A DNA stretch of 64,000 nt, taken from contig JAABRM010000032.1 in the NCBI GenBank assembly GCA_011390955.1, forward strand, positions 1 to 64,000. Direction: 5' to 3'. The notes beneath the pieces were generated by a model. That model saw nothing but the letters and a program-made list of their open reading frames with translations. It was not told the DNA's origin and ran no database searches. The position numbers and the translations under genes were made by a program. This stretch comes from Oscillatoriales cyanobacterium (GTDB lineage Bacteria > Cyanobacteriota > Cyanobacteriia > Cyanobacteriales > Laspinemataceae). Position 1 is the first letter of the stretch; each line of letters opens with the position of its first letter. Of the stretch, positions 28,841-32,302 are shown one piece after another.

Positions 28841-29323
28841 ATGAAATTGATTGAAGTTACAGAAACACAAGATCCACTGGCGGAATCGGCTAATTATAAA
28901 GAACCGATAGTTTTAACTCGGAATGGACAAGCGATCGCGGTTTTAATGCCTCTAGAAAGTGAGAGCAACTTGGATAATATTTCGACTAACTGGCGTAAAA
29001 TTATAGAACCAGAGGCGTTTGCTAAAAAAACTGAGTTGGAAACAACTTTTTATCAGCTTGTGGAGCAATGGAAAACAGAAACTCGCGGCATTTCATCCAC
29101 AGAACAACTATCAATGCACTCAGCTTATCAGCAAATCATTGGCATGGGGAGTGAAGTTATCCCGATGCTGTTACGGGAATTGGAAAAAAATTCTGGGCGC
29201 TGGTTTTGGGCTTTAAAATCAATTACTCGTGAAGATCCAGTGCTTCCCGAACAGAGAGGAAAGACCAAAGAAATGATCGAAGCTTGGTTAAATTGGGGGA
29301 GAAAAAAGGGTTATATATGGTGA
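28841..29323 (+). CDS. Phd/YefM-like N-terminus fused to a conserved WFWAL domain
   Basis: The 160-residue protein has an N-terminal segment like Phd/YefM antitoxins (MKLIEVTETQDPLAESANYK and PIVLTRNGQAIAVLMPLE). From about residue 75 it carries a different conserved region with QIIGMGSEVIPMLLREL, RWFWALKSITREDPV and AWLNWGRKKGY. The C-terminal region recurs in cyanobacterial proteins next to DUF7689-like genes, from memory of the family. The next gene overlaps it, so they form a coupled pair. A toxin-antitoxin role is possible but not shown. Confidence 0.72.
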   Translation: MKLIEVTETQDPLAESANYKEPIVLTRNGQAIAVLMPLESESNLDNISTNWRKIIEPEAFAKKTELETTFYQLVEQWKTETRGISSTEQLSMHSAYQQIIGMGSEVIPMLLRELEKNSGRWFWALKSITREDPVLPEQRGKTKEMIEAWLNWGRKKGYIW

Positions 29324-29781
29324 TGAATGAGGACTGGATTGCTAGGGTAAAAGCTTGGATAGAAAGGGATTTTCCTAATTTATCAGCAAATGGATATGAA
29401 ATTACCAGTCCTGATACGATCGATTACAATTGTATCGCTTGGGCAGCGGGTGACGATCAAAGGTGGTGGTGGCCAGATTCGCAAAATATCGATTATTGGC
29501 CAGAGGGAGTACCACGAGAAGTCACTGTAGAGGCTTTCCAGCAGGCTTTTCAAACCATTGGCTATGAAGTTTGTGCAGATGATACTATAGAACCAGGATA
29601 TCAAAAAATAGCCATTTATGCAGATTCTCATGGAAAGCCAACACATATCGCTAGGCAATTAGAGAATGGAAAATGGACGAGTAAGCTAGGGCAAGACGAG
29701 GATATAGAACATGAAAATTTACCCGGACTTGCCGGGGCAATTTATGGCAATGTTGTTGTGATAATGAAACGGATCAATTAA
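29317..29781 (+). CDS. DUF7689-like protein, partner of the upstream gene
   Basis: The protein (about 154 residues from ATG 29317) has a tryptophan-rich conserved core: DYNCIAWAAGDDQRWWWPDS, YWPEGVPREVTVEAF, GYQKIAIYADSHGKPTHIAR and WTSKLGQDEDIEH. The conserved Cys, His and acidic residues hint at an enzyme fold, but no function is established. The frame is open from 29284. ATG 29317 has a better upstream AAAAAAGGG, and ATG 29323 overlaps the upstream stop as TGATG. Either way the gene is translationally coupled to the preceding one. Confidence 0.72.
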   Translation: MVMNEDWIARVKAWIERDFPNLSANGYEITSPDTIDYNCIAWAAGDDQRWWWPDSQNIDYWPEGVPREVTVEAFQQAFQTIGYEVCADDTIEPGYQKIAIYADSHGKPTHIARQLENGKWTSKLGQDEDIEHENLPGLAGAIYGNVVVIMKRIN

Positions 29782-30025: not shown

Positions 30026-30030
30026 CCCGC

Positions 30031-32052
30031 TTACTTATTTTCATTTTTTGATTCAGTGTCAACTTTCCAGTCATCTATGGACATATCTAATGTTTCTATG
30101 ACTTCCTGGCAAAATTTAATAATTTTTTCTGCCGATAAATTCACTTCAATAAAAGCGCCATTTTTGAGCTTTTTTGGACTACGAAATTTTTTTTCATTCC
30201 AGCCAATAAAGCTAGGAAATCTCTGGATTATTTCCGGAATTTTTTCAGTTTCTAAATCATCTTCTAACTTATCAAATATTGCGTTCATAGTCACTTCTAA
30301 AACATTTCGCCAACTTTTGACCGGATACTCTTTGCCAAAACAGCAAACCTTTTTTGGTTTTTTTCCTGTTAAATTGCTTTTTTCTTTTGTATTTTTTGCA
30401 GATCCATCACCAAAGTAAGGCCAAATTTGGAGAGCAATGTCAGCGAGATACTGGGATCGTTCTTCAATTTCTTTTCGTCCCCAGCATTCTTTAGCTTGAA
30501 AATACTTATTTACTTCGAGATGGCTACCTTTAAAACGATTTTTTTTGACTTCAAAGTCAGCATTAGAAAGTTCTGAATTTTCACCAGTGAGAGTTAAATT
30601 TCCTAAAGTATGCAGCAAAAGTTCATGGGTATTAGCCCAATCATCTCCTAAATGCTTTTTCCACCAATCAGTCAGAGTTTGTGGCATAATGTGTTCAATG
30701 GAAAGGTTTTCAGGACGAACCGGTTCTTTATGACCAAAGGATTCTTCAATTGATTCGAGGATAAGTTTGCACTTTTCAGAGCTATTATTAGATCCATAGA
30801 GTTGACCTTCAAGTAATTTTGCTCTAAACACTGCATCTTTTGGATATTCTTTATGTTGCAAGATTAATTTTAATTTTTCCACAAAATTATCAGAGCCTAG
30901 GTCAGTGGCTTTACTTACTTGGGAATAGAGCAAAGCAAAAATTCGGTTGAGTCCTCTGGTTTGAATATTACAAACAAAACGACGCAAAAGAAAATTTTCT
31001 AAGATTTGAATAACCGAAATAAGCTCTGATTCTGTGATTCGAGATTTCCTCCAATCATCATAACAATTTAACAGGAATGGATAAACCGTTGCTACATCGA
31101 AACAATTTAATCGCTGTAGATATTTACTGACCACTGGGTTAGTTTCATGTTTTTTAGGATTTAACAAACTAGCATAATATTTAGCATAATTAAATAATTC
31201 CTCTATATAAGACAATGTTTTATTGTTTTTTATCCGATCTTTGATTTCAAAATAAATATCATTTTGCTTAACAACTACACCATTTTTAGTTAGATAATGA
31301 CGAAGAAAATCGGTTAAGTCATCGCCCAGTAAATTTTCCATTGTTTGCCAATATTGAGCATAGACTGACTCTTGCATATTTGGCTCGATTCGCATAAAAA
31401 GATAGTTCCGAATTAAATCGGCTTGAGTCAGGGGTCTTCCTTTCGCATTTAGACTTTCAAAAACTAAATACGGATTATCATCCGAACTTAAGACAACACT
31501 AACTAAAGAAAAATTACTCCTAATAACTTGTTTGATTTTTTTCAATTCTAATGAGGCTTGATTTTGGTAAATTTTTTTTAGAAAAAATTTATAGCATTTC
31601 CCAATAGCTGTTTGATCGTTTTGAGCCTCTGAATTGATAATTTGGTAAAAAGCATTCCGATCAACTTGTGTAGGTTGTAATTTATAGCGATTCACTCCAT
31701 TTTCATACTGGTTGACCAGGAACAAATTATTAATTTCTTTCCCCAATTTTTCGTCTGACTTTTTAGCTATATCTCTGAGAGCAGAAAGCAAAATCAACAC
31801 AGTCGTTAAGCGTTGTTGTCCATCAATTAATAGATACTGAGGTATTGCTTCCGGCACAGGTGAAGTGGGTATGGTGACAATCGAGCCCATGAAATGAGGC
31901 CGTGGATTCTCTGCCTCACAAAGTTCGACCAAATCATTCCAGAGTGCTTCCCATTCGGATGTTTTCCAGCTATAGGGTCTTTGGAATAAGGGGACAAGGT
32001 ACTGTTTTGTTCCCTCAATTACTTGTTGCAGCTTTGTTTCTGATGCTTGCAT
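30031..32052 (-). CDS. GmrSD-like DUF262/DUF1524 HNH nuclease
   Basis: The 673-residue protein has the two-domain plan of single-chain GmrSD/DUF262 type IV restriction enzymes. The N-terminal DUF262 part has VPLFQRPYSWKTSEWEALW and the nucleotide-site motif LIDGQQRLTTVLIL. The C-terminal DUF1524 HNH part has SIEHIMPQTLTDWW followed by LGNLTLTGENSELSN near residue 450-500. A further 110-residue tail follows. Characterised relatives use nucleotide hydrolysis and cut modified, e.g. glucosylated hydroxymethylcytosine, phage DNA. Here the role is inferred. It is A+T-richer than its neighbours and stands alone, consistent with a horizontally acquired defence gene. Confidence 0.88.
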   Translation of the reverse strand: MQASETKLQQVIEGTKQYLVPLFQRPYSWKTSEWEALWNDLVELCEAENPRPHFMGSIVTIPTSPVPEAIPQYLLIDGQQRLTTVLILLSALRDIAKKSDEKLGKEINNLFLVNQYENGVNRYKLQPTQVDRNAFYQIINSEAQNDQTAIGKCYKFFLKKIYQNQASLELKKIKQVIRSNFSLVSVVLSSDDNPYLVFESLNAKGRPLTQADLIRNYLFMRIEPNMQESVYAQYWQTMENLLGDDLTDFLRHYLTKNGVVVKQNDIYFEIKDRIKNNKTLSYIEELFNYAKYYASLLNPKKHETNPVVSKYLQRLNCFDVATVYPFLLNCYDDWRKSRITESELISVIQILENFLLRRFVCNIQTRGLNRIFALLYSQVSKATDLGSDNFVEKLKLILQHKEYPKDAVFRAKLLEGQLYGSNNSSEKCKLILESIEESFGHKEPVRPENLSIEHIMPQTLTDWWKKHLGDDWANTHELLLHTLGNLTLTGENSELSNADFEVKKNRFKGSHLEVNKYFQAKECWGRKEIEERSQYLADIALQIWPYFGDGSAKNTKEKSNLTGKKPKKVCCFGKEYPVKSWRNVLEVTMNAIFDKLEDDLETEKIPEIIQRFPSFIGWNEKKFRSPKKLKNGAFIEVNLSAEKIIKFCQEVIETLDMSIDDWKVDTESKNENK

Positions 32053-32302
32053 GAGTCCCTGCTTCTTTAGACGATTGACTATTGTGATGAGCCACTATTC
32101 TTTGACGATACCACTCAGGGTCTAAATTTTTCAGCATGATTCATGGGGATTCATTAACCCCGGAAAACCGATCGCCCCTACTGACCGATCGCCACAAGAT
32201 TTGAGCCAGAATATATTTTATCGGTATAATTTCCGATGTCATCCGATAGAAAGTTGCTAAAATAATCAACAAAGTCATCACCCAACAAGCAGCCCAGACT
32301 GA

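Follow-up and report, generated by a model that had tools for sequence, protein, structure and literature searches.

A W-DUF7689 gene pair, patchy across distant bacterial groups, that looks like an undescribed toxin-antitoxin-type module

DUF7689 (PF24738) stands in Pfam as a domain of unknown function, and a literature search found no mention of it. Here, we describe a cyanobacterial gene pair in which the second gene encodes a full-length DUF7689 member (D) and the first carries a domain that we call W (WFWAL), and we add to DUF7689 a partner, a predicted fold, and a candidate residue set. Among type II toxin-antitoxin systems, those whose antitoxins are of Phd/YefM type or multidomain, as in the Panacea/NetFlax network (PMC10440598), resemble W-D: they too are small operons of two overlapping genes with the partner gene in front, and their heads are exchangeable and include Panacea itself. 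However, the W-D enzyme is predicted to be papain-like, while the words "NlpC" and "papain" are absent from the main text of PMC10440598, and the neutralising part would be the new W domain.

Cpe1-Cpi1, according to the accessible text of PMC12136450, is like W-D in joining a papain-like enzyme to an adjacent small partner; Cpe1 cleaves GyrB and ParE, is delivered by T6SS/CDI, and has its immunity gene after the toxin gene (PMC12136450). In W-D, by contrast, the partner gene comes first, and we saw no delivery domain or secretion-linked gene. NlpC/P60 and CHAP amidases share a C-H-H residue set with D, with a weak bridge through two distant D relatives (L093 and L038), but the window D looks cytosolic, has no further domain, and has a near-strict W partner. 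Among the papers listed for papain-like toxin-antitoxin pairs and for DUF433 with Panacea and Phd, none describes the W-D pair as judged by its title and the opening of its abstract. Judged by its sequence, W-D looks like an undescribed toxin-antitoxin-type module, a two-gene unit with a patchy distribution in distant bacterial groups.

Layout of the pair and its exchangeable head

The window, the whole stretch of DNA analysed, covers 64,000 nt of a contig from an Oscillatoriales cyanobacterium. Gene 1 (28841..29323, + strand; ATG at 28841, stop at 29323, 160 aa) comprises a Phd-like head and W, and gene 2 (29317..29781, + strand; ATG at 29317, stop at 29781, 154 aa) encodes D. The first-pass annotation had called these two reading frames as overlapping, which is confirmed: the stop of gene 1 and the start of gene 2 share 7 nt (ATGGTGA, 29317..29323, + strand), or 1 nt if the alternative in-frame ATG of gene 2 at 29323 is used. 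Junctions resembling the 7-nt overlap are present in relatives, where gene 1 homologues sit directly 5' of DUF7689 genes. As in type II toxin-antitoxin systems, W-D consists of two small genes that overlap or adjoin and nearly always occur together; PADLOC 2.0.0 returned 0 families matching gene 1 or gene 2.

The same annotation described gene 1 as an antitoxin-like N-terminus joined to a conserved region. A degenerate Phd/YefM-like region does occupy residues 1-49 (28841..28987, + strand), but it does not reach the curated Phd/YefM cut-off: PF02604 scores 21.9 bits against the whole protein and 23.8 bits against residues 1-50 alone (Pfam cut-off 29.8), with a match that spans residues 13-39, or 27 of 74 profile positions, and TIGR01552 scores 16.3 bits (NCBIfam cut-off 20.8). 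The AlphaFold2 model of residues 1-50 has three short strands at low confidence (pLDDT block means 51-68), and Foldseek with the gene 1 model listed Phd and VapB chains at E about 2. Phd-like heads were found in 8 of the 42 loci with matches, two of these eight being the window itself. Those of L008 and L009 are likewise below the Pfam cut-off, while the heads of L007, L010, L011, and L031 are homologous to the Phd-like head by phmmer, L011 itself having no Phd match in Pfam. The Phd-like head evolves faster than W or D, with dN/dS of 0.27-0.36 in four pairs that share sequences; in those pairs W has 0.09-0.14 and D has 0.13-0.18 (L001-L009 was left out, having no dS value).

Elsewhere, W proteins begin with other domains: DUF433 in L025 (E 2.6e-22), SocA_Panacea in L029 (E 1.8e-23), and GAF in L060 (E 2.8e-6; all Pfam). 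DUF433 and Panacea are antitoxin-associated families. Other W proteins are nearly headless (107-120 aa; L002, L005, L020, and L023), and the remaining heads match no classified family. RHH-like heads (L028, L030, and L039), a HEPN-like head (L047), and a helicase-like head (L033) were seen by eye and were unconfirmed where checked. In L047 (481-2421), the long head joined to W contains an RNQIVH motif that looks HEPN-like by eye, and a DUF433-like and DUF5615-like gene pair, also recognised by eye, lies next downstream.

In some non-cyanobacteria, the gene upstream of W is separate. A TIGR04255 gene, a family of which our literature search found no mention, adjoins W in L016 (2791-3540, E 5.5e-40) and L078 (271-1014, E 3.3e-43), and a DUF3467-like gene lies upstream in L018 (3124-3489), L019 (3143-3526), and L086 (529-987), of which L019 alone touches the DUF3467 Pfam model (E 0.0011, below cut-off). 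L022 and L079 appear by eye to have another upstream protein in common. Against PADLOC, heads and upstream genes gave weak matches, at E 0.002 or worse. No operator-like palindrome upstream of gene 1 is common to six relatives; the only palindromes there are of GATCGC type, in L001, L007, and L010.

Phd was thus rejected as the defining part of the pair, since most D loci have a W protein without a detected Phd. Because the Phd-like head is below cut-off, fast-changing, and detected in 8 of 42 loci, W, not Phd, is the constant partner. The similarity of the N-terminus to Phd therefore stands, but as a feature that is below the family cut-off, optional, and exchangeable.

DUF7689 as a predicted papain-like enzyme, and the W domain

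Gene 2 matches DUF7689 over the full profile (PF24738, positions 1-118 of 118; E 4.4e-50, 169.7 bits, cut-off 22.6) with residues 28-151, following a polar N-terminus; no signal sequence or delivery domain was seen by eye in its 154 aa. The AlphaFold2 model (pLDDT 89.2, pTM 0.84) places C39 (29431-29433, + strand) at the start of a helix, and H110 (29644-29646) and H132 (29710-29712) on strands, a predicted papain-like/NlpC-P60-type set in the Cys-His-His order of NlpC/P60-type enzymes. These residues are conserved across 57 aligned D sequences or pieces: H110 in 52/52, C39 in 52/54 (Ser in the other two), H132 in 50/53, and N38 in 54/54, the denominators being sequences with a residue at that position. 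In the D proteins of L034 (1417-1872) and L035 (1429-1878), the conserved Cys is replaced by Ser and both His are kept.

Foldseek searches of the PDB with the D model gave no significant match (best E 0.18); the first five rows include AvrPphB, two NlpC/P60 proteins, and a SUMO protease, and unrelated folds come after. VIA-align against 998 of the top 1000 chains gave seven chains with Z of 5 or more, all with Z under 8. The best 50 of these 998 rows are dominated by papain-like or NlpC/P60-like proteins. The top row is 9l5u_B (Z 5.7, 99 aligned, rmsd 3.3), titled as a papain-like cysteine protease toxin/immunity pair. We take 9l5u to be Cpe1; the code itself is absent from the accessible text of PMC12136450. 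Among distant relatives of D, L093 matches DUF7689 (E 2.4e-11) and, weakly, CHAP (E 0.0023) and NLPC_P60 (E 0.067), and L038 is an NlpC-like protein of 505 aa with a GD motif by eye that matches PF24738 at E 6.8e-6. Among solved structures searched by sequence, the sole gene 2 match below 0.001 was an antibody variable domain (E 3.4e-5), which had no passing stretch and was set aside as chance.

The accessible text of PMC10318531 gives a Cys-His-His set for NLPC_P60 and related amidases. Given this NlpC/P60-type set together with the predicted papain-like fold, for which the models offer moderate support, D is probably a cysteine peptidase, amidase, or transferase, and we have moderate to good confidence that it is a papain-like enzyme.

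W occupies about residues 57-155 of gene 1 (29009..29305, + strand), as delimited by the AlphaFold2 model and the alignment. It is predicted to be all-helical, with block-mean pLDDT of 83-94 from residue 61. Pfam, NCBIfam, PHROGs, and PADLOC gave no family match to W except a chance-like Glyco_hydro_26. In the PDB, no Foldseek match to its fold fell under E 1 and no VIA-align row rose above Z 4.2; a gene 1 sequence search of solved structures found no relative, and profiles A1 and A3 (A3 being the W alignment) gave nothing under 0.4. The W profile does match the C-terminal end of one HEAT-repeat protein (L116, 1-1755; E 6.5e-6), a lead that W might be a minimal HEAT-like unit. In 15 partly overlapping pairs, dN/dS was 0.09-0.29 for W and 0.10-0.25 for D, so both domains look to be under purifying selection.

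Pairing across bacterial groups

Among 292 cyanobacterial genomes, D (PF24738) is present in 17, W in 19, and both in 16 (Fisher p 2e-22). Among 294 genomes of Planctomycetota, D is present in 11, W in at least 10, and both in at least 9 (p 1.4e-14). In Pseudomonadota, we found D in 5 of 398 genomes, W in at least 4 of 388, and both in at least 3; D adjoins W in all three genomes with a strong W match, and the rest are weak or distant. Because the W scans scored at most 17 candidates per genome in Planctomycetota and at most 13 in Pseudomonadota, these W counts may be low. Two Nitrospinota contigs (L018 and L019) and a Scalindua contig (L016) have the same W-D order. The co-occurrence statistics rule out chance pairing.

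D and W are both present in 48 of 57 unique loci (identical loci dropped). In 47 of these the two share a strand with W on the 5' side, and only the fusion L071 has the reversed order. Between the domains lie 26-102 nt in 46 loci, whereas in L041, 543 nt separate W from a D remnant. The W stop and D start are -17 to +12 nt apart in 45 of the 48, where the D start is the codon nearest the W stop, a rule that favours small distances (L019 and L041 have no usual start, and L071 is fused). The distance matrices of W and D are correlated at r 0.81 (n=42), a value that none of 2000 permutations reached (maximum 0.27); left out of this comparison were L071, four short pieces (L005, L020, L041, and L043), and loci where D was missing or in two pieces. 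Altogether, this correlation indicates that W and D travel as a unit.

The exceptions are few. In Cyanobacteria, D without W occurs only in G237, whose D is the distant NlpC-like L038, while in G235 D (L034) and W (L060) are on separate contigs, each close to an end. In Planctomycetota, D without a profile-detected W occurs in G357 (L087, where D is broken) and G364 (L086), where the overlapping upstream ORF is a divergent W (E 0.0013); in Pseudomonadota, it occurs in G960 and G932 (L093 and L094, both distant). W without D outside Cyanobacteria is limited to G568, the HEAT protein, and G816, a match of 30 positions at E 7e-4. The first-pass annotation would have been undone by a second family that commonly occurs without the first; D is instead rarely without W, and 16 of the 17 cyanobacterial genomes with D have W.

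The window comes from a Planktothricoides-like cyanobacterium: Planktothricoides sp. SR001 (L007) has gene 2 at 99% identity, and the pair occupies the same position in SR001 and in two genomes of the same genus (L100 and L101). Five relatives from the same family (L102-L106) that have the isomerase-like neighbour show no blastn match to the pair in the fetched stretch. This suggests that the pair arrived here, or was lost elsewhere, at about the genus level, and horizontal transfer would be consistent with its patchy spread.

On plasmids of Bacteroidota, a single protein joins D to W, with D first and an N-terminus that is signal- or lipoprotein-like by eye (L071 and L096). In L071 (WP_004295351.1), one gene separates the fusion from a MAC/perforin gene. 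Most of L071 is covered by its alignments to L097 (query 42-332, 32%) and L098 (query 59-301, 30%). With E-values scaled to 177,635 sequences, a D profile built without Bacteroidota matches L071 (2e-12), L096 (6e-11), and L098 (6e-9), while L097, at E 1.3, does not score; the W profile matches L095b (W-only, E 6.6e-6), L097 (8e-4), L071 (2e-3), and L096 (0.018), with no match in L098. Bacteroides conjugative plasmids (L071, 5839-10060; L072) carry the DUF7689-W fusion with its lipoprotein-like N-terminus and, further on, the MAC/perforin gene. In Parabacteroides (L098, 2768-5174), a 682-aa protein has DUF7689 and, by eye, a W-like stretch, and a T9SS-sorting ORF comes after it. On a mobilizable Bacteroides plasmid of 6.8 kb, we found a W-only protein with a lipoprotein-like N-terminus (L095, 526-945), which could be an orphan immunity-like protein.

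One-sided decay and readings of the module

Of the 28 W loci in Cyanobacteria, 15 have a D with every catalytic-type residue, one (G097) has a D with a Cys-to-Ser change, six have a broken D, and at five no D was seen; the last, G235, lies at a contig end and was left unscored. Five of the broken genes are truncated and one is cut off from the first ~20 profile positions (G000:C61, G229:C215, G048, G064, and both G255 loci). At G000:C46, G157:C57, G195, G203, and G284, no D was seen within about 1.5 kb of W, and these W-only loci may be independent acquisitions. W matches have no internal stop at any of the 28 loci, and the reverse pattern, an intact D beside a broken or missing W, was not seen in Cyanobacteria. 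Weighted by domain length, the probability that all losses fall in D is 0.003 for 11 events, and 0.009 if these are reduced to 9 to allow for the probable non-independence of G048 and G064 and of G195 and G203. Applying the same weighting to just the six broken genes gives 0.59^6, or about 0.04. In Planctomycetota, L089 likewise combines an open W with a D that is interrupted by a stop. Decay of D alone is the pattern expected if D were costly when uncontrolled and W were not.

This leads to our favoured reading, to which we give roughly even chances: W-D would be a toxin-antitoxin-like regulated enzyme module, in which D is restrained by W and W bears an exchangeable regulatory head. D would be a cytosolic papain-like thiol enzyme of NlpC/P60 type (Cys39-His110-His132) whose reaction is probably the cleavage or transfer of an amide bond, and free D would harm or arrest the cell. 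W would be the cognate binding partner of D, most likely its inhibitor, and, being made first from the overlapping transcript, would ensure that D is always born beside W. The gene 1 N-terminus (Phd-like here; elsewhere DUF433, Panacea, GAF, or none) would set expression, stability, or sensing, and in some non-cyanobacteria the separate upstream TIGR04255 or DUF3467-like gene may play the role of the head. The pairing, the gene overlap, the co-evolution, the conserved catalytic-type residues, the swapping of heads, and the one-sided decay are observed; enzyme activity, W-D binding, inhibition, toxicity, and a trigger are inferred from them. The pair may work like a toxin-antitoxin module and is a candidate member of that class.

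Earlier, the layout had been likened to a toxin-antitoxin or immunity pair, and this likeness is upheld in part. The tight linkage, the decay of D beside a kept W, and the DUF433 and Panacea heads agree with it, but no operator common to the relatives was seen, the Phd head is inconstant, and the exported-looking D-W fusions of Bacteroidota count against a simple intracellular toxin-antitoxin pair. If exported, those fusions cannot act as toxin-antitoxin pairs in the cytosol, and they would suit an enzyme with either a built-in restraint or a second working domain.

The fusions are also what gives its weight to the main rival, an obligate two-subunit enzyme in which W is the substrate-binding or activating subunit and D does an ordinary job such as peptide processing or protein modification. 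The D-W fusion within an exported-looking protein, the strong co-evolution of W and D, and the purifying selection on both domains all speak for it. However, 11 of the 28 W loci in Cyanobacteria retain W although D is broken or was not seen there, more often than a dedicated subunit would be expected to survive the loss of its enzyme. The lipoprotein-like W-only protein on small plasmids (L095) points the same way, and antitoxin-type heads would be unexpected on such a subunit. We regard the two-subunit enzyme as unlikely, though well worth keeping in view.

The genomic surroundings bear on a second alternative, that W-D is an anti-phage effector unit whose head senses infection, with W relaying the signal and D as the effector, so that arrest would come only upon infection. 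The pair adjoins a peptidylprolyl-isomerase-like gene (by eye) and a DUF262/GmrSD-type gene (30031-32052, - strand) with strong PADLOC matches (Orf5 and HEC-06). This neighbour, the patchy distribution over several phyla, the Panacea and GAF heads, the RNQIVH head in L047 (HEPN-like by eye), and the separate upstream TIGR04255 or DUF3467-like genes would all suit a defence role. Yet the DUF262 gene is variable within the genus: in the close strain SR001 (L007), window positions 30026-32153 have no blastn match, with 1.1 kb of other sequence between the same flanks, while in L101, of the same genus, the match extends to 30135, where that locus ends. The pair itself is without a PADLOC match, and its heads and upstream genes reach only E 0.002 or worse. 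D was found neither in 50,697 phage records nor by a pattern scan of IMG/VR, and gene 1 was not found in plasmids, where the Bacteroidota fusions were; a phage or plasmid origin of the pair was rejected on these grounds. We consider the anti-phage reading improbable. Less probable still, to the point of being very doubtful, is a cell-wall- or surface-active NlpC/P60-type hydrolase with an immunity or folding partner, used between bacteria, which would draw on the residue set of D and on the exported-looking versions near a MAC/perforin gene (Bacteroides, one gene between) and ahead of a T9SS-sorting ORF (Parabacteroides), but the window D has no signal sequence or delivery domain by eye and the gene 1 head is antitoxin-like, not an export signal.

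Returning to the toxin-antitoxin-like regulated enzyme, its broadest form is more tentative, and we place it somewhat short of an even chance: a new mobile, multi-phylum toxin-antitoxin-type or immune module with a cytosolic papain-like toxin, a HEAT-like inhibitor that serves as a universal adaptor for pluggable heads, and an exported fusion in Bacteroidota. The analysis contributes W, a partner domain unnamed in the four libraries used (Pfam, NCBIfam, PHROGs, and PADLOC), and proposes for DUF7689 a function that can, for the first time, be put to the test. Should D be a toxin, intracellular toxin-antitoxin systems would gain a papain-like cysteine enzyme, and the pair would show one neutralising domain combined with heads from several unrelated antitoxin or sensor families.
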